This document shows positions 35,479 to 64,000 of a stretch of DNA of 64,000 nt, piece after piece. Each line of letters begins with the position of its first letter. The first letter of the stretch is position 1. The notes beneath the pieces were generated by a model, which was given only the letters and a program-made list of their open reading frames with translations, searched no databases and was not told the origin of the DNA. The DNA is from Buxus sempervirens (taxonomy: Eukaryota > Streptophyta > Magnoliopsida > Buxales > Buxaceae). Made by a program: the position numbers and the translations under genes. The stretch lies in assembly GCA_947561395.2 (NCBI GenBank), contig OX387190.1, positions 34,404,858-34,468,857 on the forward strand, in the 5' to 3' direction.

Positions 35479-35970
35479 CTAATAAGGAGTCTGTCCGACG
35501 ACATTTCCTGCAGGATAGTAGTCGCAAGAAATGTAGACGGAGCCATTGTTGCACTTCGCACAAGCACAGCCCAGGTTCGTCGACGCTCTCCACACGACTT
35601 GAGTGTAGTGCCGGCATTCCTTACCTTGTTGGCAGCTGTTCGATGCGCGGTCGTAATTTTGCTTCTCGTCAACCCATGCATTCACAGCATCGACGCCGTT
35701 GTAGTTAGCAGTACCCACGAACACGTTCTCACCATAATCTTCAGTGTCGGACAGCATGAGTGAACAGTCTCCGGTGCGATTGCTCACATAGGATTGGGCA
35801 TATGCTGCAAGTGTGTTGTTCCAGACCAAGGGAGGCACACCGACTTGGGACCGTGCATTGTTGTGTGCATTCAGGTATTCATCTGGAGTAGTGTCTTGTG
35901 CTAGGGAAACAGTGAACAGCAATGCAACCATGCATGCAATCACAAGGGTCATGAGCATTGAGGGCCTCAT
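35479..35970 (-). CDS. PR1: Pathogenesis-related protein 1 (CAP superfamily), copy 1
   Basis: Intronless, 163 residues. PR-1 proteins are secreted defence proteins, typically salicylate-induced, that bind sterols and release a C-terminal signalling peptide. Residues 1 to about 24 form a signal peptide (MLMTLVIACMVALLFTVSLA). CAP motifs are present: YLNAHNNARSQVGVPPLVW, YGENVFVG, CRHYTQVVWR and CDYYPAGN, with six cysteines in the mature part. The C-terminal 11 residues PAGNVVGQTPY fit the CAPE1 consensus PxGNxxxxxPY, but the usual CNYx before it is CDYY. A TATA-like TATAAAAG (minus strand, 36023-36030) sits about 55 bp upstream. A second PR-1 gene in the same orientation lies 5.4 kb away. Confidence 0.94.
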   Translation of the reverse strand: MRPSMLMTLVIACMVALLFTVSLAQDTTPDEYLNAHNNARSQVGVPPLVWNNTLAAYAQSYVSNRTGDCSLMLSDTEDYGENVFVGTANYNGVDAVNAWVDEKQNYDRASNSCQQGKECRHYTQVVWRASTNLGCACAKCNNGSVYISCDYYPAGNVVGQTPY

Positions 35971-41356: not shown

Positions 41357-41842
41357 TCAGTAAGGGCGTTCGCCAATAATGTTGCCTCTTGGATCATAGT
41401 TGCAGGTAACAAAGAAGAAGTCACTGTTTTGGCATTTAACCCGGGCGCACCCAAGACGGACTGAGTCGCGCCAGACCAACTGAGTATAGTGCAGACACTC
41501 ACCTCCAACACATGAGTTTGAGTTATAATCGTAGTTTTTCTTTTCTGCAACCCACAAGTTCACTGCAGCTGTGCCTGTAAAGTCACCGCTTCCAAGGGCG
41601 ATGTTCTCACCATAAGGTCCACCAGAATGCACCAGATTGCAATCGACAGCTCTTTGGTTAGCATAGTTCTGCGCGAATGCCGCAACAGTGTTGTCCCACG
41701 ACATAGGACCGACGTTCACCTGCGCTCGAGCTGCGTTATGGGCGTTAAGGAAGTCTTGAGGAGAATTTTGGGAGTGGGAGACCTGAACCAGGCCTAACCC
41801 CATGAAAAACAGAAGAGCTAGTTCAAATCTAACCAGGGCCAT
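41357..41842 (-). CDS. PR1: Pathogenesis-related protein 1 (CAP superfamily), copy 2
   Basis: Intronless, 161 residues, same orientation as copy 1. Signal peptide about 1-24 ([17 protein letters not shown]). CAP motifs: [39 protein letters not shown] and CNYDPRGN. Here the CAPE1 context is canonical: CNYD followed by [12 protein letters not shown]-terminal ERPY and a basic RVKC segment differ from copy 1, so the paralogues are well diverged. TATAAATA on the minus strand (41915-41922) lies about 75 bp upstream of the ATG. Secretion and a defence role are inferred from the family. Confidence 0.94.
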
Positions 41843-42322: not shown

Positions 42323-43087
42323 TTAATTTCGTTCCACAGAAGTCATTTTATTCTACACATAACAGCATTCGATGTTCCACAGGAATACTCGCACAAGATT
42401 TCTTCAGTCTTCCTGTAATTTTCTCTTCTCTTGTTCATTTTTCTTTTCTGATTTTGGTGGCTGTAACCGGAACCGGAATTAGTGCCTGTCTCTTTTCTAT
42501 GAAGCTAAAAGAATTTCCGTGAAGCACTAAGAATTTCCCTTTTTCCTTTGATTGGGTCAAAGGACAGAGGTGTGTGGATCGTTTTATCAAATTATCCTTA
42601 GACTGTGTTTGGAGCCTTGGATTTGAGTTAAAAAGAAAATAAAGGAGCAAAAAGTCATTTCCTCCGTTTGGTGAGAGTTGGAAATCATAAAAGAGGGGGA
42701 AATGGAAAGAAATTTTGCTACCAAATTTTCTTTCCTTATCTAAAATATTTTCTCCCCAAAAACCTAGAGATTTGGGGAGAAATGAAAACACGGACTCTTC
42801 GACAGAAACGAACAAAGAAAGTCTCTTTGCGCTCGCTCTCCTCGACCTAGATCTCTCTCATCTTGGAATCGACAGCGAATGCATCTGTCACTCTTGTTGA
42901 CCTAAAATTTGGGGAGCAAAATGTTGGAGAGCAAAACCTTCATTGAGAAGCCTTCATTCAAATCTCTTCTCCATCTTCCTCAATGTTGGAGAGCAAAATG
43001 GAGCAAAACGTCTTCTCCACTGCATCTTCACTCTCCACGGTTCTCCATTAAGTTTTCAACTCTCAACAGCGTCTTCTAGCGTGAAGC
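42323..43087. other. Left flank of the Gypsy element
   Basis: Non-coding or unrecognised. The phrase TTGGAGAGCAAAA recurs near 42924 and 42984. The last five bases, GAAGC, are the target duplication of the retrotransposon. Confidence 0.45.
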
Positions 43088-45357
43088 TGTAGACACCCCA
43101 AATTGCACAAACAATCATCAAAAATCATTATCTCCTGGAAGGCCAGCACAAAATTTGAAGAAAATACACTTTTACCTGTATCCGGATTGAGTATTCGGAT
43201 ACAAGTACCCTTTCCCGTATCCGGATAGTCATACCGGATACGTGTGAGCCTTAGCGTATCCGGTACCATGTACCGGATACCTTAAGGCCCTTTGTTATCC
43301 GGTCTGATGTACCGGATACCTTAAGTTTGCTCAAAATTAGGGTTTTCCGAGAGCTTTTCACTTTTACCATCATGTCCCTCATTAAATGAGGGGAAATCGC
43401 GGAAATGACCTTAGGGTTTAGGTTGGAGTGGTTCTAGACATTAAGTTGTGTCTACCAATGACCTTAGCCCTTGCCTATAAATAGGAGCCTCCTCCTTGAG
43501 CAAAGGACACAACTCTTGTTTTGAATTCTCGCAAAGAAGAACTCCAAGAGAAGAAGGAAACTGCTGTGGAATCGCCTCCAGCACTCAGGTAAGCCTCAAC
43601 TTTTCTTTTTATTTTCCGTCTTTACATTCCTAGATCTAGATCTCTTCTTCTACCTTTCTGTAGTGTAAAGCCTTGTTTGTATGTGTGGAAACCCTTCCCC
43701 GGCTCAAAGTATCTCAAGACTCCCCTAGCCGTAAAACGTGAAGGCGGATCTAGGAGAAACGAGACTGGGGATTGACCCTAGTGCTAGAACCCATGTAACG
43801 TAAGGCTTTTGAATGTTTGAAAACCGTTCCATATTCAAAGTACCCTTGATTATCTTAAAGAGAACAGAGGGAAACGATAATGGAACGGAACCCTAGGCTA
43901 TGCTAGAACCTATTTTATTGAATCTATATGCGTGTGTATGGATCTTGCTAGGTTTTTTTCACTTTTGCACACATATCACTATTTTGGCGGGATAGGCTCA
44001 TATTTGGGGTTTATTGCATTTATTGTGATAAATCTCAAATAAATGGCCTCAATCAATTCTGGAATGCATTTCGGACGATTTTGAAGTATTTGTGTTCATC
44101 TTACACGAATTTCATTTTTATCAATTTTCGGATTTGGATTTTACTCAAAAGTGGCTTAGCTTGACAGCACCTGTACCCCTACTTCGGACGTCCGTAACTT
44201 CATCATCCGGATGAATTTTGGGGCGATTCCAGAACCATGGGAAAGGTGAGGCTGTCTAGTTTATGTCCACCAAATTTCATGAATTTCTCTTTAGCCGATT
44301 TTTGACACCTCTCTGTCGAAGTTGAGTGGACAGTTCAGGTCCAAGTACAGAACTTGTCACTTCGACGGACCGCCATGTGTTCGTTTTAAGTCCGATTTGA
44401 GTGATTTTTATTTCTGAGTACTCCTTTTTGAGTCTATTTTCAAATCCAGTTGGTTTCATAATTTTTGGATTCCATTTGAATTATTGGTAGCCGATTTACT
44501 CAGAACTGCTCATTTGCATTTTTCTGGGTAAATCTGTGATCTTTGGGGCCTGTTCGGGAGACCACCCAAGGCACATCCGAAGGGATTTTTGTATGAGGCT
44601 AGTTTCTGTTGAAAGATGGCCATACAGACTTCATTCACACCAAATTTCGTGGATTTCTATATAGTGGATTTTTCTAGACAATTTTCCAAAGTTGCCCACT
44701 TACTACTTTTAAAAATCCCCAACAGCAACTTCAAAGGAGCATAACTCCTAGATTTTTCATTGGAATGAAGTGAAATTTTGCATGAGACTCTTATTTACCC
44801 TAATATTTCAAATGGATTTGGTTTGGATCAATTTAGAATTGGATTTGAATGATTTTAATGCAAATGGCATACTTTTTACCAAAATTCCCGGATTTGCCTC
44901 AACTTGGTTTTGGCTACTTTTACTTTGATTTCCATCTTTTGAAATACTCCAGAAGTGATATTGACATAAGAGAGGATCTAAAATCCATTTAGATCCTCAT
45001 GTGAAAATATCATACATTAATCCTTTTTCAAGGCTTTTTCATGAATTTTAGCAAGCTTTCTTACTTTGTTTTTAGCATGAGCATACACTTGGCAACCACT
45101 TCGTGTGGATGAATGGGGGTGCCTAACACCTTCCCCCGTTCATAATCTAATCCCCTTACCCATCTCTGGATTTTATTTTCAAGTAGGGTTATTTTTACCC
45201 TAGAATTTGTCATTTGGCTATTTTTGCCTACTTTTGAATCTTTGGTGTCCATTCTCACCCCAAAATCATGAATGGTGGCGACTCTCCCAATTTTTGCGTT
45301 GAGCCCGTGTGCTGACGGAGGGACGATCACTCCAGTGATTTTTTCCCATGTCTCACA
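43088..45357 (+). repeat. 5' LTR (2,270 bp)
   Basis: Starts TGTAGACACC and ends CTCACA. U3 holds the 25/14 palindrome array at 43178-43319. A TATA box CTATAAATAG lies at 43475-43484, so transcription probably starts near 43505. Differences from the 3' LTR include T43195 against C59369 and A45334 against G61508. Confidence 0.95.
43178..43319 (+). repeat. Periodic palindrome array in the 5' LTR (4 units, 39-bp period)
   Basis: Units at 43178-43202, 43217-43241, 43256-43280 and 43295-43319, each 25 bp, separated by exactly 14 bp. Each unit is two 10-bp complementary arms with a 5-bp loop, for example GTATCCGGTA, CCATG, TACCGGATAC in unit 3. Loops are TGAGT, AGTCA, CCATG and TGATG. It sits in U3, upstream of the TATA box. 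Function unknown; candidates are protein-binding dyads or hairpins. Confidence 0.92.
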
Positions 45358-45378
45358 ACTGGCGACTCTGCTGGGGAC
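45358..45378 (+). other. Primer binding site
   Basis: TGGCGACTCTGCTGGGGAC follows the LTR within two bases. It looks like the complement of a tRNA 3' end, most likely tRNA-Arg as reported for Tat/Ogre elements; the tRNA identity is from memory. Confidence 0.6.
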
Positions 45379-46872
45379 TTGTGGATTTAAGCCATTTTGT
45401 GTATATTCATGCTTTTTCACCACTTTTGAATGCTTGCTATTTTGTTTGTTTTATTTGTGCATAATGTTGTATTCTAAATCAGATTGGGATGCTTTTGAAT
45501 ATTATATGAATCAAATCATGTATGTTTTGCTTGATGTTGCCTAAAGGTTGATTTAGGAAAAGCCTATCTTGAAGCATGATTTGGTTGTATTTGGTGATAA
45601 CATGCTCTAATTTGAATTTTGAATACCATGGTTTGAATATGAGAATTAGTATCATGAAATCTAGGAGTTCAGAATTTTTGGGTATTCAAACATGATTCCT
45701 ATAAAGCATGCTTTTTTGTGCTTAAAAACATTTTTGTTATGCCATGCCTTTGATTTGGGGTATAGGGGGATTCAATTTGAGCATGAAAACCAAGAGCATG
45801 AAATCTGGAATTTTAGTGCACATTGTGGTTTTAGTATGTTCACCAATATACCATGTCAAGTAGTTGCTAAACTTTTAGGCATTAATTTGGGGTATAAAGG
45901 ATGCACTTTTGAGCATGAGAAATCTGAAAATTTTAGTGCATATTTCTGGAGATTTCAAGCATATTTTACCTCATTGAAACACTTTGGTATCATGTCAAGT
46001 AGTGCTAAAATTTTAGGCTCCAATTTGGGGTAGAAATGGTACACTTTGAGCATGAAAAAGAGCATGAAATCTGGGATTTTAGGGAATGCTTTTGAGTTTC
46101 AAGCATGCTTACATGATTTTATGGTTGTTTGTACAAATGACATGTTTTGTATAACACTTTTTGGGCATGTAATACTTTTTGTGCATATTTAGTTGTTTTG
46201 GTGCTTGCTTGCTTGTATTTAGCTTCATTATCTTTGTCATTTGTACCTTGGCTTGAAATTGAATGCATGGCTACGAAAAAGAGTGGCAAGGGGCTGGGAC
46301 GTTGTGAATGTTACCACAATTTAAAATTGCACTTGAGCACTTGAAACAATTTGCACAGCCTACCCTTTACCTATTAGGAAGTTGAACCATGAATGTGTGT
46401 AGCTTGGCGCACCGAGGTCGTGACTTCGGAAAGCGAAAGTGAAAACATTTACCTTAGAATTTGGGTCAATGATGTGATGACAATGGGATCTGTGATTCGA
46501 TTCCGGGCATCACTAGACTTGAGTTCTAAGTTGCCAATTAAGCCAAAACCCAAAAACCATACGCTTGAAGGTGGAGAAACACGTTTTCGGCTAAAAGCAC
46601 ACAATTGCGTTTGGGGAATTGGATGTAAATGTGGGAAGGCCGTTTGCATGTTTTACAGGCCAAGGTATAATGTGAATACCATATTGAATGAAGGTAATAC
46701 AAGGTAGCAAGGTAAAGCCATGTCCTTTTCCTAAATTTGAGGAATTTTGCAAGTATGATGTCCAAGCCCAATCTGGGGCAAGTTTTGAAGGTCAAATTAA
46801 GGTGAACATCAATTGGGAATAAAAAAAAACTAATCGGGTGAAAAAAATGAGTCAAAAAGGGCCATTTCGGCA

Positions 46873-47014
46873 ATAACCGGCAACTCAGGCCGGTTAATAG
46901 CAACCCTGTTCATATCCGGTATATATTTCCGGATAAAAAGGCATATGCGTGAATCCGGTTATAGTAACCGGATACAATAAGGCATATTATTATCCGGAAT
47001 GTTATACCGGATAC
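46873..47014 (+). repeat. Periodic palindrome array in the internal leader (4 units)
   Basis: Units at 46873-46897, 46912-46936, 46951-46975 and 46990-47014, again 25 bp with 14-bp spacers. Arms are variants: ATAACCGGCA/GGCCGGTTAA, ATATCCGGTA/TTCCGGATAA, GAATCCGGTT/AACCGGATAC, TTATCCGGAA/TACCGGATAC. The first loop ACTCA is the same as the first loop of the array at 63598. Confidence 0.88.
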
Positions 47015-47309
47015 GTTCAAAAATGCACAAATTGGCTTTTCAGCCCAAATTTTCAGAATAAAATGCCTAAAACACTGTGGATAATCCTTAGGCACCCCGA
47101 AAAGAGCATAAGAAATGTTCCAAAATACAGAAAGAAAAACAAAAAAAAAAGAATAAAATAAAATATTCTTTCAGGATTTAACCTAAGTTTGAAAACCAAA
47201 GAGGAAACCAAGGTGTCATTTTTTTTGACACCAACTCAACTCAAACATGTGTCAGTCAAACTCTGGAACTTGAAAACTGAGAAAATTCAGCAAATTTGAA
47301 AAAAAAAAA

Positions 47310-48690
47310 ACCTTTGGTTGGTTATTTTTATCAATCAAATCAAAAAAAAATAAAAACCTTTGGTTGGTTATTTTTATCAATCAAATCAAAAAAAGTGGGA
47401 CACTTGGAAGCCCTAGAATATTCCATGGAAACCTTGGTTGGTTATTTTTATCAATCAAATCAAACAAAAAAAAATGAAAACCTTGGTTGGTTATTTTTAT
47501 CAATCAAATCAAAAAAAAGTGGGACACTTGGAAGCCCTAGAATATTCCATGAAAACCTTGGTTGGTTATTTTTATCAATCACATCAAAAATAAAAAATAA
47601 AAACCTTTGGTTGGTTATTTTTATCAATCAAATCAAAAAAAGTGGGACACTTGGAAGCCCTAGAATATTCCATGAAAACCTTTGGTTGGTTATTTTTATC
47701 AATCAAATCAAACAAAAAAAAATGAAAACCTTGGTTGGTTATTTTTATCAATCAAATCAAACAAAAAAAAAAAATGAAAACCTTGGTTGGTTATTTTTAT
47801 CAATCAAATCAAAAAAAGTGGGACACTTGGAAGCCCTAGAATATTCCATGAAAACCTTGGTTGGTTATTTTTATCAATCAAATCAAACAAAAAAAAAATG
47901 AAAACCTTTGGTTGGTTATTTTTATCAATCAAATCAAAACATTTGTGGGATACTTGGATAGAGTAGTCCAAGACACCTTTGGTTGGTTATTTTTATCAAT
48001 CAAATCAAAACATTAGTCCAAAACACCTTGGTTGGTTATTTTTATCAATCAAATCAAAAAAGATCAAAAAATTGGGACCCTTGGAAGCCCTAGAATATTC
48101 CATGAAAACCTTGGTTGGTTATTTTTATCAATCAAATCAAAAAAAAAATCAAAAAATTGGGACCCTTGGAAGCCCTAGAATATTCCATGAAACCTTGGTT
48201 GGTTATTTTTATCAATCAAATCAAACAAAAAAAAAATGAAAACCTTTGGTTGGTTATTTTTATCAATCAAATCAAAACATTTGTGGGATACTTGGATAGA
48301 GTAGTCCAAGACACCTTTGGTTGGTTATTTTTATCAATCAAATCAAAACATTTGTGGGATACTTGGATAGAGTAGTCCAAGACACCTTTGGTTGGTTATT
48401 TTTATCAATCAAATCAAAACATTTGTGGGATACTTGGATAGAGTAGTCCAAGACACCTTTGGTTGGTTATTTTTATCAATCAAATCAAAACATTTGTGGG
48501 ATACTTGGAAGCCCTAGAATATTCCAAGACACCTTTGGTTGGTTATTTTTATCAATCAAATCAAAACATTTGTGGGATACTTGGATAGAGTAGTCCAAGA
48601 CACCTTTGGTTGGTTATTTTTATCAATCAAATCAAAACATTAGTCCAAAACACCTTGGTTGGTTATTTTTATCAATCAAATCAAAAAAAA
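47310..48690 (+). repeat. Tandem repeat block, about 22 copies
   Basis: The core GGTTGGTTATTTTTATCAAT followed by CAAATCAAA recurs about 22 times at intervals of about 50-85 bp. It alternates with A-runs or with two linker types, one containing GGAAGCCCTAGAATATTCCA and one containing GGATACTTGGATAGAGTAGT. Open frames across it only reflect the repeat. Tandem repeats are known in some Tat elements, for example Retand. Confidence 0.9.
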
Positions 48691-48942
48691 AAAAAAAAAA
48701 AAAGAAATTTGGGACCCTTGGAAGCCCTAGAATATTCCAACTCAAAACAAAAAAAAAACAAAAACAAAAACAAAAAAATTTTTTCTGGCTGGTGTTCACC
48801 TAACCTACTGGTTTACATATATAGGGGTGTGACTCAAGTTAAGTGGAAACTAACATGTTCTATTCATTTTTTTCACTCAGGTACATTCAACCCAGGTACA
48901 CTTGCAATCATTGCTCCAGTAACTAGATCCAAAGCCAGAACA

Positions 48943-50340
48943 ATGAATACTGAAGAGAACCAAGCCCAAGCTACCGTCCCTGCTCAGGACTTTACTCAAC
49001 TGCAGGAGCAAGTGGCCGGTCTGGCCAAAATGCTGGGGGACCTACTGGCGGCTCAAGCCCAACAGGCCCAAGCCCCGAACCAGGCATCTACTTCTCATCC
49101 GGCACCGCCACCTCAGGCCTATATTCCGCCTCCGGCTCAGCCCATGCCTGAGCCCATTTCTGAACCAGTCCCTGAGCCCATTCTGATCAGGGAAAATACA
49201 GTAGAGTCGGAGAAAGAGCTGGAGAAAGAAAAGGCCCGAGATGAGATGGAGAAAAAAATGCTGCTGAGGATAGAGAGGATCCAGGCAGAGCTGAAGGAAG
49301 TGAAGGGGGGAGGCAGCCATGCAGGCACCACCTTCGAGGACCTGTGCATGTACCCGGACGTCTGTCTACCGGCTAAGTTCAGGTGCCCAGACTTCGACAA
49401 ATTTGATGGCACGGGCTGCCCGTTGAGCCATCTCAAATTATACTGCGGGGCCCTGTGCCAGTTTGGCCGGGACGATGGGATACTGATCCAGCTCTTCCAG
49501 AGGAGTCTGACCGGGTCAGCCCTTCGGTGGTTCGCTACAGTGGACCATGGAAGGATTAGAAGGTGGAAGGACTTGGCCGATGCTTTCTTGGACCAGTACA
49601 AGTTCAACTCGGAGATCGTGCCGGACCGGTACGACATGATGAGGATGACCAAGGGGAAGGATGAACCGGTACGGCAGTACGCCAAGAGATGGAGAGAGGC
49701 CGCCTCCCAGGTCAGGCCACCTATGCAAGAGCCGGAGATGATCTCCACATTCATGGGCACACTGGGGCAGCCCTTTTACAACCATCTGGTGGGCCAGATC
49801 ACCACCAACTTTGCAGCCCTGGTGCAGGTGGCTGACCGGATTGAAGAAGGGGTCAGGTCAGGACGGCTGATAGACTACTCTACTCTTACTGGGCAGTCTG
49901 CTTCCTCTGCCTCCATGGCCCAGAAGAAAGGGGCCGGGTTTAAAAAGACGGGGGCCCGAAAAGAAGGGGAGGTGAACCTAGTCCAGGCTCCTCCAGCCAA
50001 GAAGCCACTGCACGTCAACATCTCTGCACCCCAACAGGCCCAGCAGGCCCAGCAGTCATACCAGACCCCGATGAATGTCAACTTCTCTCCTTCTGTGCCA
50101 GCTAACACAAGGAGGACTTTTTCTAAGGAGGAGCGGGATGCCTGGTTCGCAGCAAGAAAGAACCGGGTTTTCACCCCTCTACCAATATCTCTTTCCCAAC
50201 TATTGCCAACTTTGCTGAAGGGTGAATACTTGACTCTGAAGGAGCCCAACCCGAATGCCACCAGGGGGAGAAATTTTGACACGTCGGTCACTTGTGACTT
50301 CCACATGGGTGCACCGGGGCATTCTACAGATACCTGCTAG
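48943..50340 (+). CDS. gag: Gag polyprotein of the Gypsy element
   Basis: 465 residues from ATG 48943 (MNTEENQAQATVPAQDFTQL) to TAG 50340. The frame is open upstream, so initiation could be earlier. A Pro/Gln-rich N-terminus (PEPISEPVPEPI) and a charged coiled-coil-like segment precede the retrotransposon gag domain at about residues 130-310, with DFDKFDGTGCPLSHLKLYC, RSLTGSALRWFATVD and MRMTKGKDEPVRQYAKRWRE. A zinc-knuckle-like C-x2-H-x4-H-x4-C motif, starting CDFHMGAPGHSTDTC, stands directly before the stop. Gag packages the RNA in virus-like particles. The downstream frame continues without shift after the TAG. Confidence 0.9.
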   Translation: MNTEENQAQATVPAQDFTQLQEQVAGLAKMLGDLLAAQAQQAQAPNQASTSHPAPPPQAYIPPPAQPMPEPISEPVPEPILIRENTVESEKELEKEKARDEMEKKMLLRIERIQAELKEVKGGGSHAGTTFEDLCMYPDVCLPAKFRCPDFDKFDGTGCPLSHLKLYCGALCQFGRDDGILIQLFQRSLTGSALRWFATVDHGRIRRWKDLADAFLDQYKFNSEIVPDRYDMMRMTKGKDEPVRQYAKRWREAASQVRPPMQEPEMISTFMGTLGQPFYNHLVGQITTNFAALVQVADRIEEGVRSGRLIDYSTLTGQSASSASMAQKKGAGFKKTGARKEGEVNLVQAPPAKKPLHVNISAPQQAQQAQQSYQTPMNVNFSPSVPANTRRTFSKEERDAWFAARKNRVFTPLPISLSQLLPTLLKGEYLTLKEPNPNATRGRNFDTSVTCDFHMGAPGHSTDTC

Positions 50341-52653
50341 GTATTGAAGCATGCGGTCCAGGACCTGTTGGACCAGAAGGCCTTAGTGTTCAACACTGCT
50401 GCACCGGCCCTATCCGGGAATGATATTGGGCAGAACCCTCTGCCTTACCACAATGGGGCAGGCCCATCCAACTCCGTCTCTGCCATATCCACCACGAGAA
50501 GGGCCTTTGACCCATCTCAGCTTATAGCCCCTGTGGGGACTACAGTCCAGGTCCGATTTTTCTCAGAAGGGGAAGAGGAGGAGATCAACATGGTCTCCCA
50601 AAAAAATAATCTTGCTGCTGAGGACATAAGCTCCTCCTTAAACCGGGTCTCTTCTCTGATGGCTCAGATGAATACTGCAAGGCCCGCATTGGTCTTCAAT
50701 TGCAGTCCACCCACTTTTTCCCCATCCAAGCCGTCTAAGGCTCCACTGGTCATCAATCTTGACCCCACCACTGCTTCCATCACTTCTTCTGTCCCCACCA
50801 AATCCAAACTTCAACCCCTGGTTGTAAATGTGCAGCCAGCCCATACTATCCCTAAACCGGCCCATACATCCCGGTCCAGACTCCAGCCATTAGTGGTTAA
50901 CATCCCTAAACTAGCCTATTCAGAGGCCGCTGTACCATGGAATTACAGCGAGGGAATCACGGCTACGGTTCCAATGGTCAGGAACCAGAACCAGGAGGAG
51001 GTGAACCTCATGACGAGGTCGGGGAGATGTGCAGGGGGTGAAGAGAAAGAAAAGGAGACAGAAACAGAAAAAGAAAAAATAGAAAAAGAAAATGAAGAAA
51101 AAAGAAAACAGAAAGGAAAAAATAAAGTAGGAGAAGACACCCCCCAGGGTGCAGAAAATGAGGCAACAGACCTCATAAAAATAATAAAGAAGAGTGAATT
51201 CAATCTTGTGGATCAACTGAACAAGGTCCCGGCCCAGATTTCAATACTGGGCCTTTTGCTGAATTCTGAAAAGCACAGGGATGCATTGTTAAGGGTGCTA
51301 CAGAGTGCACACGTATCCCAGACTATTGATCCGGACCAGCTTGGTAAAATGGTTGGTCAAATCTTGTCACATAATGTGATAAGTTTCTCAGAAGGTGAGA
51401 TCAGCCCAGGTGGGTGTTATCATGTGGACCCTTTGCACATCACTGTGCTTTGTAAGGGCTGCATGGTGGCACGGGTTTTAATTGACAACGGGTCAGCGTT
51501 AAACGTTTGCCCGTTAATCACTTTTACCAAGCTGGGCCTGGACCAGTCAAGGATCAAAAGAAATGGGTGGATAGTGAGGGCTTTTGATAGCTCCAAGACC
51601 CACTCCCTAGGGGAGATTGAACTGCCGGTCACAATTGGGCCGAATATCTTTAACATCACATTTGAGGTGATGGATATACCCGCAGCCTTCAATCTGCTCC
51701 TAGGAAGGCCGTGGATACATTCGGCTAGGGCAATACCATCCACGCTCCACCAGAGGGTGAAGTACATAAGAGGGCAAAGGGTGATAACAGTCCTAGCCGA
51801 AAACTTGGTGCCGCCCATCGTGTCACCTGATGTACCCTTGATAAATGTGGACTTGACTGTTGACAAGATTGCATTCCACTCATTTCAATTTGAGGCGGTC
51901 AATTACATACCTGGGGGGTGTGAGAAAAAGAAAGAAAAGGGGACCACTGCAGAAAAGATGGTCAAGAAAGTGATGGAGAAATACCACTTTCACCCAGGGA
52001 AAGGCCTGGGGATCAATCTGCAGGGGATGGTGGAGCCAATCACGGCTAAGAAACTAGTCCCAAGGGTAGGGTTGGGCTTCAAGCCCAGAGGCTGGAGAAG
52101 AATGAAGCACGAAGAAGGGGAGAGCAGAAGCAAAGGAAAACTCCCTCATTTAAGGGAAAGCTTCCCAAAACCCTCCTACATAATCCAAATTTCTCCTCCT
52201 ATGGACCAATCCAAACCTCCCTACTACAATGTCAACCCATTTCAAAAGCCTTCTGTTTCGGCTTTGCAACCATATAACCCCTCTCCGATACTGGAAGCAG
52301 TGGATGGGCCTGGACCACAGCCCGAGCAGCAGGTGGACTTTTCTGAAGATGTTGGTGCATTCTTCGCCATGACTGAAGGCGAAAAGACAGGGGCAGACAT
52401 GGAACTGCCATTCATTGATTGGGCCGCAGTAAAGGTTCCAGACAAGGTCATTTCTGGATCAGACCCCGTAGCAGAAAAGGGCAGTACCCACCCGGTGATG
52501 ATGGCATCGGATGCTGGGCTTGAGGAGCAGGCTTTCCCTATTTCCCCTGTTCCCCAAAATTTTGTACTGAACAATTGGGAGGAAACTCCCCTTACCTTTG
52601 AAGCAGCGTTAGTTCGGCAAACTGACGCGGCTTCCAAAAAAAAACTCCAATAG
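50341..52653 (+). CDS. Protease region of the Gypsy polyprotein
   Basis: Open frame in phase with gag after the amber codon, ending TAG at 52651-52653. It has no own ATG at its start, so it probably needs readthrough or is disabled. A low-complexity Glu/Lys segment lies at about 51045-51140. The aspartic protease follows: ARVLIDNGSALNVCP at about residues 375-390, flap-like and distal motifs, and LLLGRPWIHSARAIPSTLHQ. The active triad is DNG rather than DTG/DSG, a form also seen in related plant elements. After it, FHPGKGLGINLQGM is a G-patch-like motif. The C-terminal linker ends at an A9 run at 52636-52644. Confidence 0.85.
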   Translation, partial: VLKHAVQDLLDQKALVFNTAAPALSGNDIGQNPLPYHNGAGPSNSVSAISTTRRAFDPSQLIAPVGTTVQVRFFSEGEEEEINMVSQKNNLAAEDISSSLNRVSSLMAQMNTARPALVFNCSPPTFSPSKPSKAPLVINLDPTTASITSSVPTKSKLQPLVVNVQPAHTIPKPAHTSRSRLQPLVVNIPKLAYSEAAVPWNYSEGITATVPMVRNQNQEEVNLMTRSGRCAGGEEKEKETETEKEKIEKENEEKRKQKGKNKVGEDTPQGAENEATDLIKIIKKSEFNLVDQLNKVPAQISILGLLLNSEKHRDALLRVLQSAHVSQTIDPDQLGKMVGQILSHNVISFSEGEISPGGCYHVDPLHITVLCKGCMVARVLIDNGSALNVCPLITFTKLGLDQSRIKRNGWIVRAFDSSKTHSLGEIELPVTIGPNIFNITFEVMDIPAAFNLLLGRPWIHSARAIPSTLHQRVKYIRGQRVITVLAENLVPPIVSPDVPLINVDLTVDKIAFHSFQFEAVNYIPGGCEKKKEKGTTAEKMVKKVMEKYHFHPGKGLGINLQGMVEPITAKKLVPRVGLGFKPRGWRRMKHEEGESRSKGKLPHLRESFPKPSYIIQISPPMDQSKPPYYNVNPFQKPSVSALQPYNPSPILEAVDGPGPQPEQQVDFSEDVGAFFAMTEGEKTGADMELPFIDWAAVKVPDKVISGSDPVAEKGSTHPVMMASDAGLEEQAFPISPVPQNFVLNNWEETPLTFEAALVRQTDAASKKKLQ

Positions 52654-55600
52654 TGGATTGCCATTTCCCTGAAGGTTCTAATGGGCCTTCGTCTTCAGGG
52701 GAATTATGTTTAGAAGGCCCACAAAAAACCCAAAAAGATTTTTCTATTTTTTCTAGAAAATTTAATTTTTTCAAAAAGGTCCACACCACTTATGAACCAT
52801 ATAATCAGACCGAATTGGACCAGGTTGAATATGACTTCGACCTTGAGCTCGACTTTGATCTCATGGGGGTCGAAGAAGAGACCGAGGTCGAAGAAGAAGA
52901 CGTTCCAAAAGAAATTGAATACCAATTGGAACGTCATGAAAAGGGGGTCCAACCTAATATTGAGGAGACCATATCCATAAATCTTGGGACCGAAGAGGAC
53001 CCAAAAATTGTGAAAATCGGGTCATGCTTGTCTGATGTGCAGAAAATTGAAATGTCACAATTCTTGGCAGATTACAAGGATGTGTTTGCTTGGTCGTATC
53101 GGGACATGCCAGGGTTGGACACTGACATGGTGGTGCACAGGTTGCCAATTTTGCCAGGGGTTAAGCCGATTAAGCAGAAGCTGAGAAGATTGAAGCCGGA
53201 ATGGACCTTGAAGGTCAAGGACGAAGTGGTCAAACAATTCCAAGCTGGATTTTTGGCAGTCTCTACGTACCCGGAGTGGCTCGCAAACATAGTGCCGGTA
53301 CCAAAGAAGGACGGGAAGGTCCGAATGTGCGTGGACTATAGAGACTTGAACAGGGCAAGCCCAAAGGACGATTTTCCGCTTCCACACATCGACATTCTGG
53401 TTGATAATACTGCAGTACATAGCCTGTTTTCCTTCATGGATGGTTTCTCAGGATATAATCAGATCAAGATGGCTAAGGAAGACCAAGAGAAAACAGCATT
53501 TATCACACCTTGGGGCACATTCCACTATACCGTCATGCCGTTTGGGCTTAAGAATGCCGGGGCAACATACCAGCGGGCCATGACTGCACTATTCCATGAC
53601 ATGATCCACAAGGAGATGGAGGTCTACGTGGATGATATGATTGCCAAATCATGCAAAGAGGAGGACCACTTGATCAATCTGAAGAAAGTGTTTGATCGTC
53701 TCAGGAAGTACAGTTTACGGCTTAACCCGGCTAAGTGCGTCTTTGGGGCTACATCAGGAAAGTTGCTTGGGTTTATAGTGAGCCGAAGGGGAATTGAAAT
53801 TGACCCGGCAAAAGCCAAGGCCATAATTGAAATGCCAGCACCCAGAACCGAGAAGGAGGTCAAGGGCTTTCTTGGAAGGATTCAATACATAAGCCGGTTC
53901 ATAGCACAGCTCACTGCTATCTGTGAACCAATTTTCAAGCTTTTAAGGAAGGATAACCCGACGGTCTGGAATGAGGACTGCCAGCAGGCATTTGACACAA
54001 TAAAGAGGTATTTACTGAACCCACCTGTACTAGTGCCACCAACTCCAGGAAGACCGCTGATCCTGTACTTGTCAGTATTGGAAACGTCGATGGGATGCGT
54101 CTTGGGGCAGCATGATGAGACGGGTAGAAAAGAAAGGGCAATTTACTATCTGAGTAAAAAATTCACAGAATATGAAGCCAAATACTCATCATTGGAAAAG
54201 ACTTGCTGTGCTCTAGTGTGGGCCACTCAGAGGCTAAGGCATTATTTCCTTAGTCACTCCACACTATTGATATCCCGGATGGACCCGCTGAAGTATTTAT
54301 TTGAGAAACCGGCACTGACTGGCAGGACGGCAAAGTGGCAACTACTATTGTCCGAGTTTGACCTCACATACATCACCCAGAAGGCGATCAAGGGTCAAGC
54401 CATAGCTGATCACCTGGCTGCACATCCTTTACCAGAATATCAACCCTTGAAGACCAACTTTCCCGATGAGGCAATCCTGTACACTGAAGAGGAGGACAGT
54501 GAGAGTTCTTGGCAGATGTTCTTCGATGGGGCCGCCAACATGAATGGGAACGGCATAGGAGCAGTCTTGGTTAAACCAGATGGTTCGCACATCCCGATTG
54601 CAGTAAAGCTGAGATTCCAGTGCACCAATAACATAGCAGAATATGAGGCATGCATAATTGGATTGCAAGCAGCCATGGATCATGGAGTAGAAGAACTTGA
54701 CGTATATGGGGATTCGAGTCTTATCATCTTCCAAACAACTGGTGAGTGGAAAACCAAGGATCACAAATTGATCCCCTATCACCAGTATTTGGAAGAAATA
54801 AGCACAAATTTCACTCGAGTTTCCTTCAACTATATGCCAAGGGCCAAGAATCAGTTTGCGGATGCTCTAGCAACCTTGGCTTCAATGGTCAGCATACCAG
54901 AAGGAGTAGACATCAGACCACTGGAAATTGAGGTCCGAGATGAACCGGCTTACTGTCTCGTTCTAGAGGGAGCACCAGAAGAAGAAACACCATGGTTTCA
55001 GGATATCAAGAACTTCTTGAATAATAGGAGTTTGCCAGAAAATGCCACTGCTACTGAGAAGAGGACAATACAGAGATTGGCTGGTCAATTTCTGCTAAGT
55101 GGTGGACATGTGTACAAGAGATCACATAACGACATTCTGCTAAGATGTGTTGCCAAGGCTGAATCGGAAAGACTGATTGAGACTGTACATGGAGGAGTCT
55201 GTGGGCCCCATATGAGTGGGCACATGCTGGCTAAGAAGATCCTAAGGCTGGGATACTACTGGACAACCATGGAGCATGATTGCTGTATACATGTCAGGAG
55301 GTGCCACCAATGTCAGATATATGCAGATAATAAGCATGCACCCCCAGGTGAGTTGCACAACATGACATCACCCTTGCCCTTCTCTATGTGGGGCATAGAT
55401 GTCATCGGCATGATCTCCCCTAAGGCATCGAACGGGCACAGATTCATCTTGGTGGCAATTGATTATTTCACTAAGTGGGTGGAAGCAGCTTCATATGCAA
55501 ATATCACAAGCAACCATGTGATCAAATTTTTGAAGCACAATATTATTTGTCGCTATGGACTGCCAAGTGCTATAGTATCAGACAATGCTTCAAATATTAA

Positions 55601-56240
55601 GAACAAGGACATGAAGAAAATGTGTGAGCAGTTTCAGATCACCCACCACAAGTCAGCTCCATATAGGCCAAAGATGAATGGGGCAGTAGAAGCAGCAAAC
55701 AAGAATATAAAGAAAATCATTCAGAAGATGGTAGTAAGTTACAAAGATTGGCATGAAATGCTACCACTTGCTCTACATGCCTACAGAACCTCGATCCGGA
55801 CTTCAACTGGGGCAACCCCATACTCCCTAGTCTATGGGATGGAAGCAGTCTTGCCCGTGGAAGCAGAGATCCCCTCACTCCGAGTGCTCATGGAAGCAGA
55901 GCTAGAAGAAGCCGAATGGGTCCAGTCGAGACATGATCAACTTAACCTGATAGAAGAAAAACGGTTGAAAGCGCTTTGCCATGGACAGTTGTACCAGAAG
56001 AGAATGGCCCGGGCTTACAATAAGAAAGTGAGGCCCAGAACTTTCCAAGAAGGAAACTTAGTGCTAAAGAAAATCTTACCATTTTTGGAAGACCCTCGTG
56101 GTAAGTTCAAGCCCAATTGGGAAGGCCCATATGTCGTCAAGAAAGTCCTGTCAGGGGGTGCACTCATCTTAGCAGAAATGGATGGGTCAGATTTTCCTGA
56201 GCCCATTAACTCTGATGCGGTAAAAAGGTATTTTCCTTGA
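52653..56240 (+). CDS. pol: Reverse transcriptase, dual RNase H and integrase
   Basis: A single open frame of about 1,195 codons, in the -1 frame relative to protease; its first base is the last base of the protease stop, so it is not independently started. Reverse transcriptase about 170-365 has VPVPKKDGKVRMCVDYRDLN and the catalytic YVDD at 325-328. Connection/RNase H about 430-560 has IYYLSKKFTEYEAKYS. A second RNase H about 618-750 begins WQMFFDGAANMNGNGIGAVL. Integrase has an HHCC zinc motif (RRCHQCQIY) and catalytic D916, D977, E1013, a D,D35E spacing. The tail resembles the integrase C-terminal domain without a chromodomain. All catalytic residues I checked are intact. Confidence 0.94.
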   Translation: MDCHFPEGSNGPSSSGELCLEGPQKTQKDFSIFSRKFNFFKKVHTTYEPYNQTELDQVEYDFDLELDFDLMGVEEETEVEEEDVPKEIEYQLERHEKGVQPNIEETISINLGTEEDPKIVKIGSCLSDVQKIEMSQFLADYKDVFAWSYRDMPGLDTDMVVHRLPILPGVKPIKQKLRRLKPEWTLKVKDEVVKQFQAGFLAVSTYPEWLANIVPVPKKDGKVRMCVDYRDLNRASPKDDFPLPHIDILVDNTAVHSLFSFMDGFSGYNQIKMAKEDQEKTAFITPWGTFHYTVMPFGLKNAGATYQRAMTALFHDMIHKEMEVYVDDMIAKSCKEEDHLINLKKVFDRLRKYSLRLNPAKCVFGATSGKLLGFIVSRRGIEIDPAKAKAIIEMPAPRTEKEVKGFLGRIQYISRFIAQLTAICEPIFKLLRKDNPTVWNEDCQQAFDTIKRYLLNPPVLVPPTPGRPLILYLSVLETSMGCVLGQHDETGRKERAIYYLSKKFTEYEAKYSSLEKTCCALVWATQRLRHYFLSHSTLLISRMDPLKYLFEKPALTGRTAKWQLLLSEFDLTYITQKAIKGQAIADHLAAHPLPEYQPLKTNFPDEAILYTEEEDSESSWQMFFDGAANMNGNGIGAVLVKPDGSHIPIAVKLRFQCTNNIAEYEACIIGLQAAMDHGVEELDVYGDSSLIIFQTTGEWKTKDHKLIPYHQYLEEISTNFTRVSFNYMPRAKNQFADALATLASMVSIPEGVDIRPLEIEVRDEPAYCLVLEGAPEEETPWFQDIKNFLNNRSLPENATATEKRTIQRLAGQFLLSGGHVYKRSHNDILLRCVAKAESERLIETVHGGVCGPHMSGHMLAKKILRLGYYWTTMEHDCCIHVRRCHQCQIYADNKHAPPGELHNMTSPLPFSMWGIDVIGMISPKASNGHRFILVAIDYFTKWVEAASYANITSNHVIKFLKHNIICRYGLPSAIVSDNASNIKNKDMKKMCEQFQITHHKSAPYRPKMNGAVEAANKNIKKIIQKMVVSYKDWHEMLPLALHAYRTSIRTSTGATPYSLVYGMEAVLPVEAEIPSLRVLMEAELEEAEWVQSRHDQLNLIEEKRLKALCHGQLYQKRMARAYNKKVRPRTFQEGNLVLKKILPFLEDPRGKFKPNWEGPYVVKKVLSGGALILAEMDGSDFPEPINSDAVKRYFP

Positions 56241-57185: not shown

Positions 57186-58064
57186 CTAATCTCCTAGCCG
57201 CTCCTCAAGCTCCCGAATCCGAGCTGCCTGAGCTGCAATGACTCCTGAAGCCCCCTCTGCAGCGGGATCACTCAGGAAGGAAATGACCTCATCTGAAAGG
57301 GCCTGCTTGATCCTCATACTCCTAAGGCTGGCCAAAGTAGCCTGGTACTTCTGCCGGATCATACGGACCTCGAAGCAACGGGCCTGCCTCTGCTCCTCCA
57401 GCTTCTCTTCCACGGCAATACGGCGTGAGATCTGCTCCTCAAGCTGCCTCTCCAGATAAGCACCCTGTATCCTGAGCTCCTGGGCCTCCCATACCCATAT
57501 CTGCTGAAGCCGCTTATGAGAAGCCCGCTCAGACTCTAGAATGTCCTCATAGGTGGGAGCCAAGACTACAGGAGGCTCTTCGGGTACCGGGGCCTGGGTC
57601 TGTATCTGTTCCTTGATCCAGAAGAGATAATCCTTCACATGGGCTTCTGAGAAGACTGGACCATGCATGAAACGGACATAGGACCACTCCTTCATCAACC
57701 AGGCATTCAGCTTCATAGAAAGGGGCCCAAGACGATCCTCATATCCACATGGGATGATAATCCCCTGGGTCGCACGGAACTGACGAAGGACCTGCAGAGG
57801 AAGATACAGCACTGCATGCCTCAGGCCAGCCAGAATCAGAAAGTTGCGGTCACAGAAGCTAATCACTGTCTCCGCATTAGGCTGATAAGTACCAGGCCAT
57901 CTCACCTGGTCATCCTGAAGCGAGCCCAAGAAAGTGAACCAGTCCTGTTTGCCCCCTGGAATATCGGGGCACCCCCTGTTGCTCATCAAGAGAGGGACCT
58001 TCAGACTCGGGAAGAAGTGTCGATTGATCTCTTCAATCTGGCTCAAATGATCAAGTAGCCAAAG
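57186..58064 (-). CDS. Antisense ORF of the Tat element (last exon), coiled-coil C-terminus
   Basis: A 292-codon open frame on the minus strand, ending at 57186. It begins LWLLDHLSQIEEINRHFFPS right after the sequence CTCCTCCTTTGCAG, a strong splice acceptor at 58065-58067. An in-frame donor CTGCAG|GTAAAA lies at 58310, giving a 245-bp intron with a long pyrimidine tract. The upstream exon reads NDVCAIVAHNLQ before the junction. The N-terminal half resembles the globular domain in plant-mobile-domain/DUF7745-like proteins (low certainty). The C-terminal half is a charged coiled coil (RQLEEQISRRIAVEEKLEEQ). Antisense extra ORFs downstream of pol are known in Tat elements; their role is unclear. 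The 5' start was not found. Confidence 0.7.
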   Translation of the reverse strand, partial: LWLLDHLSQIEEINRHFFPSLKVPLLMSNRGCPDIPGGKQDWFTFLGSLQDDQVRWPGTYQPNAETVISFCDRNFLILAGLRHAVLYLPLQVLRQFRATQGIIIPCGYEDRLGPLSMKLNAWLMKEWSYVRFMHGPVFSEAHVKDYLFWIKEQIQTQAPVPEEPPVVLAPTYEDILESERASHKRLQQIWVWEAQELRIQGAYLERQLEEQISRRIAVEEKLEEQRQARCFEVRMIRQKYQATLASLRSMRIKQALSDEVISFLSDPAAEGASGVIAAQAARIRELEERLGD

Positions 58065-58309
58065 CTGCAAAGGAGGAGAGATATGTCAACACAGCATTGT
58101 ATAAAAAAAAAAAAAAAGCAAAAAAGGCAAAAAGAAAGCCAAGAAGCAAGAGAAAAAGAAGAAAAGAAAAAAGAAGAAAAAAAGAAAAAATAGAAAAAAA
58201 AAAGAGAAAAGAAAAAAAAAAAAGAAAAAAAAGCAAAAAGAAAGCAAAAAAAAAAAAGCAAAAAAAAGAAAAAAAAAAGCAAAAATGAAAAAAAAAATAT
58301 TTTTTTTAC

Positions 58310-58400: not shown

Positions 58401-58557
58401 AGGTTTGGGCATCAAATGGCACCCAGGTAAATCAAATAAGAAAATCAATCAGGAAAATTCAATAAAATATTTCCTTCCTTATTGTTGAAAAACATCAAAA
58501 GCAATTGAGTTTGCAGAGGTCAATTTTAAATCCACATTCTTTTCAAAATTTGCTTGT

Positions 58558-59260: not shown

Positions 59261-59261
59261 T

Positions 59262-61531
59262 TGTAGACACCCCAAATTGCACAAACAATCATCAAAAATC
59301 ATTATCTCCTGGAAGGCCAGCACAAAATTTGAAGAAAATACACTTTTACCTGTATCCGGATTGAGTATCCGGATACAAGTACCCTTTCCCGTATCCGGAT
59401 AGTCATACCGGATACGTGTGAGCCTTAGCGTATCCGGTACCATGTACCGGATACCTTAAGGCCCTTTGTTATCCGGTCTGATGTACCGGATACCTTAAGT
59501 TTGCTCAAAATTAGGGTTTTCCGAGAGCTTTTCACTTTTACCATCATGTCCCTCATTAAATGAGGGGAAATCGCGGAAATGACCTTAGGGTTTAGGTTGG
59601 AGTGGTTCTAGACATTAAGTTGTGTCTACCAATGACCTTAGCCCTTGCCTATAAATAGGAGCCTCCTCCTTGAGCAAAGGACACAACTCTTGTTTTGAAT
59701 TCTCGCAAAGAAGAACTCCAAGAGAAGAAGGAAACCGCTGTGGAATCGCCTCCAGCACTCAGGTAAGCCTCAACTTTTCTTTTTATTTTCCGTCTTTACA
59801 TTCCTAGATCTAGATCTCTTCTTCTACCTTTCTGTAGTGTAAAGCCTTGTTTGTATGTGTGGAAACCCTTCCCCGGCTCAAAGTATCTCAAGACTCCCCT
59901 AGCCGTAAAACGTGAAGGCGGATCTAGGAGAAACGAGACTGGGGATTGACCCTAGTGCTAGAACCCATGTAACGTAAGGCTTTTGAATGTTTGAAAACCG
60001 TTCCATATTCAAAGTACCCTTGATTATCTTAAAGAGAACAGAGGGAAACGATAATGGAACGGAACCCTAGGCTATGCTAGAACCTATTTTATTGAATCTA
60101 TATGCGTGTGTATGGATCTTGCTAGGTTTTTTTCACTTTTGCACACATATCACTATTTTGGCGGGATAGGCTCATATTTGGGGTTTATTGCATTTATTGT
60201 GATAAATCTCAAATAAATGGCCTCAATCAATTCTGGAATGCATTTCGGACGATTTTGAAGTATTTGTGTTCATCTTACACGAATTTCATTTTTATCAATT
60301 TTCGGATTTGGATTTTACTCAAAAGTGGCTTAGCTTGACAGCACCTGTACCCCTACTTCGGACGTCCGTAACTTCATCATCCGGATGAATTTTGGGGCCA
60401 TTCCAGAACCATGGGAAAGGTGAGGCTGTCTAGTTTATGTCCACCAAATTTCATGAATTTCTCTCTAGCCGATTTTTGACACCTCTCTGTCGAAGTTGAG
60501 TGGACAGTTCAGGTCCAAGTACAGAACTTGTCACTTCGACGGACCGCCATGTGTTCGTTTTAAGTCCGATTTGAGTGATTTTTATTTCTGAGTACTCCTT
60601 TTTGAGTCTATTTTCAAATCCAGTTGGTTTCATAATTTTTGGATTCCATTTGAATTATTGGTAGCCGATTTACTCAGAACTGCACATTTGCATTTTTCTG
60701 GGTAAATCTGTGATCTTCGGGGCCTGTTCGGGAGACCACCCAAGGCACATCCGAAGGGATTTTTGTATGAGGCTAGTTTCTGTTGAAAGATGGCCATACA
60801 GACTTCATTCACACCAAATTTCGTGGATTTCTATATAGTGGATTTTTCTAGACAATTTTCCAAAGTTGCCCACTTACTACTTTTAAAAATCCCCAACAGC
60901 AACTTCAAAGGAGCATAACTCCTAGATTTTTCATTGGAATGAAGTGAAATTTTGCATGAGACTCTTATTTACCCTAATCTTTCAAATGGATTTGGTTTGG
61001 ATCAATTTAGAATTGGATTTGAATGATTTTAATGCAAATGGCATACTTTTTACCAAAATTCCCGGATTTGCCTCAACTTGGTTTTGGCTACTTTTACTTT
61101 GATTTCCATCTTTTGAAATACTCCAGAAGTGATATTGACATAAGAGAGGATCTAAAATCCATTTAGATCCTCATGTGAAAATATCATACATTAATCCTTT
61201 TTCAAGGCTTTTTCATGAATTTTAGCAAGCTTTCTTACTTTGTTTTTAGCATGAGCATACACTTGGCAACCACTTCGTGTGGATGAATGGGGGTGCCTAA
61301 CACCTTCCCCCGTTCATAATCTAATCCCCTTACCCATCTCTGGATTTTATTTTCAAGTAGGGTTATTTTTACCCTAGAATTTGTCATTTGGCTATTTTTG
61401 CCTACTTTTGAATCTTTGGTGTCCATTCTCACCCCAAAATCATGAATGGTGGCGACTCTCCCAATTTTTGCGTTGAGCCCGTGTGCTGACGGAGGGACGA
61501 TCACTCCGGTGATTTTTTCCCATGTCTCACA
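59262..61531 (+). repeat. 3' LTR (2,270 bp)
   Basis: Same borders and length as the 5' LTR, offset by 16,174 bp. Contains the same TATA box and palindrome array. Followed directly by the target duplication GAAGC. Confidence 0.95.
59352..59493 (+). repeat. Periodic palindrome array in the 3' LTR
   Basis: Same four-unit array as in the 5' LTR. Unit 1 here is a perfect 10-bp palindrome (GTATCCGGAT, TGAGT, ATCCGGATAC). The 5' LTR copy has one C-to-T change in the right arm at a CCGG site. Confidence 0.92.
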
Positions 61532-61536
61532 GAAGC

Positions 61537-63495: not shown

Positions 63496-64000
63496 TGTAG
63501 ACACCCCAAATTGCACAGTAAAAATGAAGAATAGTTGACAAAAATCATTATCTCCTTTGAAACCAGCACAGAATTTGAGAAAACAAGCTTTTTCCTTGTA
63601 TCCGACAACTCAGGTCGGATACAAGCGCATCTCTTCGTATCCAACATAAGTTGTCGGATACAAGCAGACCTTAATGTATCCGGCAACATATGCCGGATAT
63701 GTGTAGGCGCTTGTGTATCCGACTTGACATGTCGGATACATGATTTTTGCTCAAAATTAGGGTTTTCCGAGAGTTTTCACCTTTTACCATCATATTCTTC
63801 ATTAAATGAGTGGAAATCTCGGAAATAGCCTTAGGGTTAAGGTTGGTGGGCTATAGACTTTATGTTGTGTCTACCATCCCACCAACCCTAACCCTAGCCT
63901 TTGCCTATAAATAAGAGGCTCCTCCTTAAGTAAATGACCAACAACTCTTGTCAAGAACTTTTGCCAAGAAGAACTCCGAGTGAAGAGGGGAACCGCTGTG
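63496..64000 (+). repeat. Start of a second, related Gypsy LTR (cut by window end)
   Basis: TGTAGACACCCCAAATTGCA at the start and the same order of blocks as the full-length LTR: array, AATTAGGGTTTTCCGAGAG, TATA box CTATAAATAA at 63905, and GAAGAACTCC. Clearly diverged, so another family member. No polypurine tract precedes it, which suggests a 5' LTR or solo LTR. Confidence 0.85.
63598..63739 (+). repeat. Periodic palindrome array in the second LTR family
   Basis: Units at 63598-63622, 63637-63661, 63676-63700 and 63715-63739: again 25 bp with 14-bp spacers. Arms mostly use GTATCCGAC / GTCGGATAC where the other LTR uses GTATCCGGT / ACCGGATAC. Self-complementarity is 9 of 10 in every unit. 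Confidence 0.92.

Follow-up and report, generated by a model that had tools for sequence, protein, structure and literature searches.

The nearest described structures to the arrays reported here are the RM boxes of Sireviruses, Ty1/copia retrotransposons in which, according to the available part of the account, many copies of palindromic CGG-CCG boxes precede the TATA box of the LTRs, with further boxes in the vicinity of ENV (Bousios et al. 2010, PMC2829016). As far as that part of the account extends, both structures consist of a palindrome with a CGG-CCG core (GTATCCGG-N9-CCGGATAC, the unit described below, contains CGG-N9-CCG), and both form one cluster in the LTR upstream of the TATA box and another at an accessory gene, which is ENV in Sireviruses and the antisense genes in the element studied here. 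The likeness extends to the letters ATCCGG/CCGGAT, which the arrays have in common with the Citrus Sirevirus box, AATCCGGCTWRCCGGATT, as given in the accessible text (PMC2829016). The Sirevirus clusters are further described as bordering predicted CpG islands. An earlier note on this DNA held that no standard LTR part looks like the array; in view of the Sirevirus boxes this is not right. There are, however, clear differences. Sirevirus carriers are Ty1/copia elements, whereas the carrier of the arrays is a Ty3/gypsy element (order RT-RNase H-integrase), and the sections of the description available mention neither a fixed period nor a constant set of four boxes, nor antisense genes, nor a box that differs in parallel at multiple sites (PMC2829016).

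A second precedent is provided by the VANC proteins of VANDAL, which bind short tandem-repeated motifs in non-coding regions (Hosaka et al. 2017, PMC5735166) and for which co-evolution of protein and motif has been proposed (PMC5735166, PMC10398659), both statements being taken from the accessible portions of these reports. Common to the two systems, on that basis, is a target motif that is repeated in several non-coding regions and differs between families. In contrast, VANDAL is a DNA transposon, and the VANC motif, cited as YAGTATTAY in the available text, is not a spaced palindrome (PMC5735166). In addition VANC contains DUF1985 and its binding has, in the account available, been demonstrated, whereas DUF1985 was not found in the antisense ORFs scanned here and binding to the arrays is predicted. 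A regulatory role has been suggested for the antisense genes of Retand and Grande, of which Grande gene23 has its own promoter, as reported in the accessible sections (PMC11963269, PMC7264820). These elements and the one described here, so far as those sections go, are all Ty3/gypsy with antisense genes between pol and the 3' LTR. The antisense products differ, having a TRP28 domain in Retand and Grande and PMD/DUF7745 here, and the parts of the two reports that are available describe no palindrome arrays at promoters (PMC11963269, PMC7264820). The same parts describe the function of the antisense genes of large plant retrotransposons as unknown (PMC7264820, PMC11963269).

In the open-licence literature, consulted mostly as titles and the starts of abstracts, no report was recognised in which one retrotransposon has palindrome arrays of fixed period at several of its promoters, and the matches listed for the half-site letters appeared unrelated by title. 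The Gal4 upstream activating sequences of yeast also comprise several CGG...CCG dimer sites upstream of promoters; Gal4 is a zinc-cluster protein with other spacing, and offers only an analogy for how the arrays may work.

The window, by which we mean the whole 64,000-bp stretch of the Buxus sempervirens genome that was analysed, contains a Ty3/gypsy element flanked by a 5-bp target duplication, GAAGC (43083-43087 and 61532-61536). The LTRs, ∼2.27 kb in length, are 99.6% identical, with 9 differences. In window coordinates the features are:

43088..45357, + strand, 5' LTR of the Ty3/gypsy element of ∼18.4 kb (43088-61531), from LTR pair identity and the target duplication
43178..43319, + strand, U3 array of the 5' LTR, four units with half-sites GTATCCGG/CCGGATAC, 9-bp loops and 14-bp spacers
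43476..43483, + strand, TATA box of the LTR promoter (TATAAATA), 157 bp past the U3 array
45360..45377, + strand, probable primer binding site, two bases past the 5' LTR, read from the sequence
46873..47014, + strand, leader array before gag, four units at 46873, 46912, 46951 and 46990
48610..50340, + strand, ORF with a Retrotrans_gag domain, from a domain match
52653..56240, + strand, pol ORF with RT, RNase H, a second RNase H (RVT_3) and integrase, from domain matches
57186..58070, - strand, C-terminal exon of the antisense DUF7745/PMD gene
59262..61531, + strand, 3' LTR, from LTR pair identity
59352..59493, + strand, U3 array of the 3' LTR, four units at a 39-bp period
63496..64000, + strand, start of a second-family LTR (∼74% identical), cut by the window end, from sequence comparison
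63598..63739, + strand, second-family U3 array, four units at 39 bp, three of which have A as letter 8 of the left half-site and T in the right one

The primer binding site is presumably of the tRNA-Arg type. The pol domains are ordered RVT_1, RT_RNaseH, RVT_3 and rve, which is the Ty3/gypsy order with two RNase H domains; integrase follows RT and the second RNase H, as in Tat-like elements, and it is this second RNase H that we take to be the mark of the Tat lineage. An ORF between gag and pol (50344-52653) has a G-patch domain match, and a long tandem array with a unit around TTGGTTATTTTTATCAATCAAATCAAA and several interleaved periods occupies 47299-48707, between the leader array and gag.

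The four units of the U3 array start at 43178, 43217, 43256 and 43295, and the earlier proposal that each comprises 25 bp, with 14-bp spacers and an exact 39-bp period, was borne out. In each unit a 9-bp loop separates the 8-bp half-site GTATCCGG from its reverse complement, CCGGATAC. The earlier description of two 10-bp complementary arms was slightly generous: 9, 8, 10 and 8 of the ten positions pair in the four units. In 26 aligned units, a hand-chosen set from few families on which the analysis does not lean, positions 4, 8 and 9 gave support for more symmetry than column composition accounts for, and position 10 gave none. The conserved half-site is the 8-bp GTATCCGG. The distance between half-site centres is 17 bp inside a unit and 22 bp from one unit to the next, corresponding to 1.6 and 2.1 turns at 10.5 bp per turn. 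Half-sites that face each other across a spacer would therefore lie approximately on one face of the helix, a relation that is arithmetic and whose meaning is a matter of interpretation. When arrays were scored over ten arm pairs per unit and four units at 39 bp (maximum 40), the U3 array reached 35/40 and the four arrays in the window (U3 43178, leader 46873, 3' LTR 59352 and second LTR family 63598) 33-36/40. The next best place in the window scored 26/40, the best scores in 60 dinucleotide shuffles of the window were 22-26/40, and periods from 26 to 80 other than 39 gave at most 28/40. As all of these are lower, the array geometry is not due to chance, and the arm complementarity on which the earlier note relied stands clear of shuffled controls.

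The search for palindromes at a fixed spacing was extended, as the earlier note had proposed, to the 676.5-Mb genome. Here CCGGATAC followed by GTATCCGG with 1 to 31 bases between them yielded 13,010 matches, compared with 2 for the reversed control. Gaps of 1 to 13 bases account for 91 matches (control 0) and gaps of 15 to 31 bases for 2,510 (control 2), which by subtraction leaves 10,409 with a gap of exactly 14 bp. Among the matches listed in the 15-31-base class, all from contig C1, there are 50 distinct places, of which 49 are second-register reads of arrays (starting at a CCGGATAC that lies within a neighbouring unit or spans it); the remaining place has a true 15-base spacer. Given both the 10,409 matches and the predominance of second-register reads at longer gaps, the 14-base spacer is close to a rule. 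The earlier note would have discounted the periodicity as a relic if related copies had variable spacers and no arm complementarity beyond shared ancestry. Spacers shorter than 14 bases occur in the 91 of 13,010 matches given above, second-family U3 arrays are exactly 4 x 39 in 20 of the 20 fetched, and half-sites are conserved as spacers drift; the periodicity was not refuted. The pattern CCGGATAC-N14-GTATCCGG also occurs in 6 stretches in viral contigs and at least 119 in bacterial and archaeal contigs. Among the matches listed it is present at a single place in 6/6 viral and 79/80 bacterial or archaeal stretches and at two places in the remaining one, and because of this single-place pattern these matches were treated as chance rather than as related arrays. 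No array was found between two type 2 LTRs on contig C10 (L221), and the 2.5 kb that follow the window's own second-family LTR (L219) contained no leader array. C3:10756284-10776872 (L072, L073) is not a simple full-length copy.

Longer relatives of the element, ∼20 kb from LTR to LTR, encode two antisense genes between pol and the 3' LTR. The best matches of the first are to DUF7745 (5.3e-17) and PMD (5.9e-13), both in L028, the shorter L027 piece being below the cut-offs; the second matches PMD at 8.5e-14 in L027 and 2.8e-13 in L024. In the window copy the upstream (first) exon of the DUF7745 gene, its promoter array and the PMD gene are absent, all of which are found in the loci L024, L027 and L028; the array of the PMD promoter is missing as well. 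A four-unit array is located directly upstream of the DUF7745/PMD gene (L027 4139-4280, L024 4890-5031), and in both loci TATAAATG begins 13 bp past the end of this array on the antisense strand. TATAAA is at the same place after the array in 18/18 further copies, which were chosen by similarity to a query containing the TATA box and eight of which, recorded at +12, were fitted one base off. Type A DUF promoters are spaced exactly 39-39-39 in 10/18 cases, the other 8/18 having 38 bp at the TATA-proximal spacing. The PMD gene is preceded by two units 39 bp apart (L027 8615 and 8654), after which comes TTTTATAAG with TATAA at +10. The 39-bp distance is kept in 19/20 PMD-promoter copies, with 41 bp in one, and TTTTATAAG is present in 17 of the 19 promoters at 39 bp and missing in two.

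The U3 block lies upstream of a TATA box (43476), as the earlier note described, and the position of this box relative to the array end is +156 or +157 in 7/7 first-family LTRs examined and +167 in the second-family LTR of the window. TATA boxes are therefore present at three of the four array sites, the U3, the DUF promoter and the PMD promoter. At the leader array a scan of 46573-47315 found no TATA box except TATATA at 46920, inside the array. The presence of the array at four sites of the element, together with the parallel difference between families described below, goes beyond the earlier note. The idea of an antisense TATA in the U3 beside unit 1 was dropped: such a box was seen by eye in L012, and neither L031 nor the window's second-family LTR showed one. 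Pairs of units at 39 bp were also observed ∼700-800 bp from the U3 array in L012 (2208), L005 (794), L019 (779) and L007 (723), where the PMD promoter would be; L007 has a third unit 77 bp off.

Comparison of arrays revealed that lengths are kept as letters change. Half-sites are 83-98% identical between sites within a family, whereas loops and spacers drift at constant length. Between the window U3 (5' copy) and the antisense-promoter arrays, identity amounts to 95-97% over the 64 positions of the half-sites, 39 to 53% over the 36 of the loops and 24 to 26% over the 42 of the spacers, the last being about the level that would be expected of unrelated DNA. The window U3 and that of L031 are 95% identical in the LTR beside the array, 97% in half-sites, 36% in loops and 60% in spacers. 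With other lengths allowed, loops of 9 bp were recovered in 80/80 second-family U3, 40/40 PMD and 72/72 DUF units. When the window is taken together with the larger loci, 25/28 distinct four-unit arrays are exactly 39-39-39 and the other three (L012, L013 and L018) have one spacing of 38; the 39-bp period is thus not absolute, as exceptions of 38 and 41 bp exist. The unit 1 loop (sense strand) contains ACTCAG in most of the arrays compared at the U3, leader and DUF promoter, from which the arrays are probably of common origin. The motif, which may represent a second, asymmetric contact, is absent from the unit 1 loop of the window U3, and other loops differ between arrays.

The two families, type A and type 2, differ in half-site in parallel at all four sites. 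Type 2 is the family of the LTR at 63496 and has half-sites GTATCCGA and TCGGATAC. In two elements with type 2 LTRs the leader letters match the type 2 half-site, and in one of these the DUF7745 and PMD promoters likewise have type 2 letters. The pair at position 8 is G-C in 149/152 type A units and A-T in none; by site, G-C is found in 22/24 units of the U3 (6 arrays, chosen by the authors), 16/16 of the leader (4 arrays), 72/72 of the DUF promoter (18 arrays) and 39/40 of the PMD promoter (20 arrays). In type 2 the pair is A-T in 59/80 U3 units (20 arrays picked by their U3), 67/80 leader units (20 arrays), 51/80 DUF units (20 arrays) and 37/40 PMD units (20 arrays). Type 2 is not uniform, as unit 3 of the U3 is often G-C and 22/80 DUF units are mixed. 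Spacing in type 2 PMD promoters is 39 bp in 20/20, with TATAA at +10 in 11/20, and in type 2 DUF promoters 39-39-39 is the best fit in 20/20; TATAAA lies at +13 in 19 of these and at +14 in the remaining one.

U3 arrays that had not been selected by their U3 were obtained from 20 elements picked by the leader, for which 1.2 kb was fetched at the expected U3 position. These gave 12 complete arrays, one partial array (L245) and seven with none by the threshold used (L255 being in between), and the U3 count leaves out eight elements, the seven without an array and L245. In the 12 arrays 37/48 units are A-T, 5 are G-C and 6 mixed; each array has two to four A-T units of its four, compared with 0/24 in the type A U3. 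Agreement between leader and U3 within one copy is partly expected from linkage. Since each family is a clade, and since most copies were retrieved with a query of the type to which they belong, the independent evidence consists of the four sites, up to 14 units and both arms, and not of copy number.

The dN/dS ratio of the PMD exon is 0.09 (L024 vs L027) and that of the neighbouring exon 0.12, with values of 0.19 to 0.22 for the DUF exon (three pairs, including the window copy) and 0.05 to 0.06 for pol, each figure being derived from two or three copies. These ratios indicate that the antisense exons are under purifying selection. The exons with ratios of 0.12 and 0.09 are on the minus strand at 5245-5760 and 5983-6957 in L027 and at 6040-6555 and 6803-7753 in L024; one has a PMD match and one has no Pfam match. 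Between type A and type 2 the PMD exon displays 81% amino-acid identity over 286 positions (L027 vs L218). Pfam scans of nine antisense ORFs or exons from L024, L027 and L028 identified PMD and DUF7745, with no DUF1985 and no TRP28 (PF04195). A search for solved relatives of the PMD exon at E values up to 1 returned none. The C-terminal parts of the antisense proteins appear coiled-coil-like by eye, and one match to a coiled-coil family was below the cut-off. The host PMD proteins MAIN and MAIL1 affect transposon silencing, and genes that are down in MAIN/MAIL1 mutants have a common promoter motif, according to the accessible part of the study (PMC7156037).

The array is real and highly constrained, and the case for an element-encoded regulon is credible. 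We estimate a probability of roughly 60% that the array would be a promoter operator for a dimeric protein, likely the element's own antisense protein, with an anti-silencing or activating role like that of VANC. A cooperative platform for a dimeric protein was among the four guesses of the earlier note and fits best of these, binding itself being predicted from the arrangement of the sites. The operator would consist of eight 8-bp half-sites (GTATCCGG) that alternate in orientation, the gaps between them being fixed at 9 and 14 bp, and its reader would be a dimeric or oligomeric, sequence-specific DNA-binding protein. As this proposed operator recurs in the leader, at the LTR promoter and directly before the TATA boxes of both antisense genes, a single factor would determine how active the entire element is. 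The best candidate is the antisense protein of the PMD or DUF7745/PMD type, which may act as an activator or anti-silencing factor in the manner of VANC in VANDAL transposons, and which shorter copies, including the one in the window, would use in trans. Activation or anti-silencing is preferred to repression since the element's own promoters, those of the candidate genes among them, would be the targets and the element has amplified. We infer that a protein binds, that the element encodes it, that shorter copies use it in trans and in which direction it acts.

These features suggest that the element may control itself through its own DNA-binding protein, which probably co-evolves with its sites as VANC does. 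The fuller proposal, for which we would give slightly less than even odds, is that this Ty3/gypsy element is a self-contained regulon in which an antisense PMD-type protein binds rigid palindromic operators at the element's promoters, including those of the antisense genes, and in which protein and operators shift specificity together between families, providing a counterpart of VANC. If so, LTR retrotransposons too would carry a sequence-specific circuit for self-regulation or anti-silencing, and the arrays would be a case of a rigid operator grammar (gaps of 9 and 14 bp) kept while the intervening letters changed. If the arrays are targets of the antisense proteins, the function of these proteins becomes testable with a defined protein, a DNA site, two natural specificities and very many copies.

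The strongest competing explanation, which we nevertheless consider unlikely, is that a host transcription factor, for instance one related to stress, reads the arrays as has been proposed for Sirevirus boxes, the antisense proteins being unrelated to them. The resemblance of the half-site to the Citrus Sirevirus box, reported from an unrelated superfamily in the text available (PMC2829016), would fit a shared plant factor, and scans of the antisense ORFs (L024, L027 and L028) gave no recognisable DNA-binding domain. However, a Sirevirus-like copia box, AATCCGGN2-6CCGGATT, had 0 matches in the genome of the window against 15 for the control, and a box common to copia Sireviruses and the arrays in this genome was therefore rejected. 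Furthermore, one genome contains two half-sites, each at all four sites of its family, which a common host factor would not require; this favours a separate factor for each family, presumably encoded by the element.

It is improbable that the arrays are selected as RNA hairpins in the genomic transcript, with roles in packaging, dimerisation or stability, or as sources of small RNAs. The earlier note had raised RNA hairpins for the transcribed 3' U3. RNA of the U3 array folds far better than its shuffles (z -9.8), and in maize the parts of Sirevirus LTRs that are rich in palindromes are hot spots of small RNAs, according to the accessible sections of two reports (PMC5311732, PMC10760457). The predicted best fold, however, is not four separate hairpins, and at position 8 of the sense strand G.U (23) is not above A.C (26) in related copies; fold shape and these combinations disfavour the hairpin as the main selected feature. 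Half-site letters are also conserved beyond the needs of pairing, and two of the array sites are just upstream of TATA boxes of antisense genes. Small RNAs may be produced as a side effect of the arrays.

Slightly less probable still is copying between arrays within one element, by gene conversion or template switching, which would generate both the shared half-sites and the parallel difference without a factor acting in trans. Reverse transcription offers opportunities for template switching, and the probable common origin of the arrays, from the recurrence of ACTCAG, is in accord with this explanation. Copying would, however, homogenise loops and spacers too, whereas between the sites of a presumed single type 2 element half-sites are 83-89% alike, loops 56-64% and spacers 45-52%, and between the U3 and DUF promoter of the type A element L027 the values are 97%, 47% and 29%. 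Lastly, a neutral tandem repeat relic, which four tandem units superficially resemble, can be virtually dismissed together with chance, as shuffles and other periods of the window score poorly, neither spacers nor loops repeat one another, their lengths persist over four sites and two families in the absence of sequence identity, and freely varying spacer lengths were not seen in related arrays.

To the left of the element, the window contains two ORFs on the minus strand, at 35479-35970 and 41357-41842, that by eye are similar to the PR-1/CAP family.
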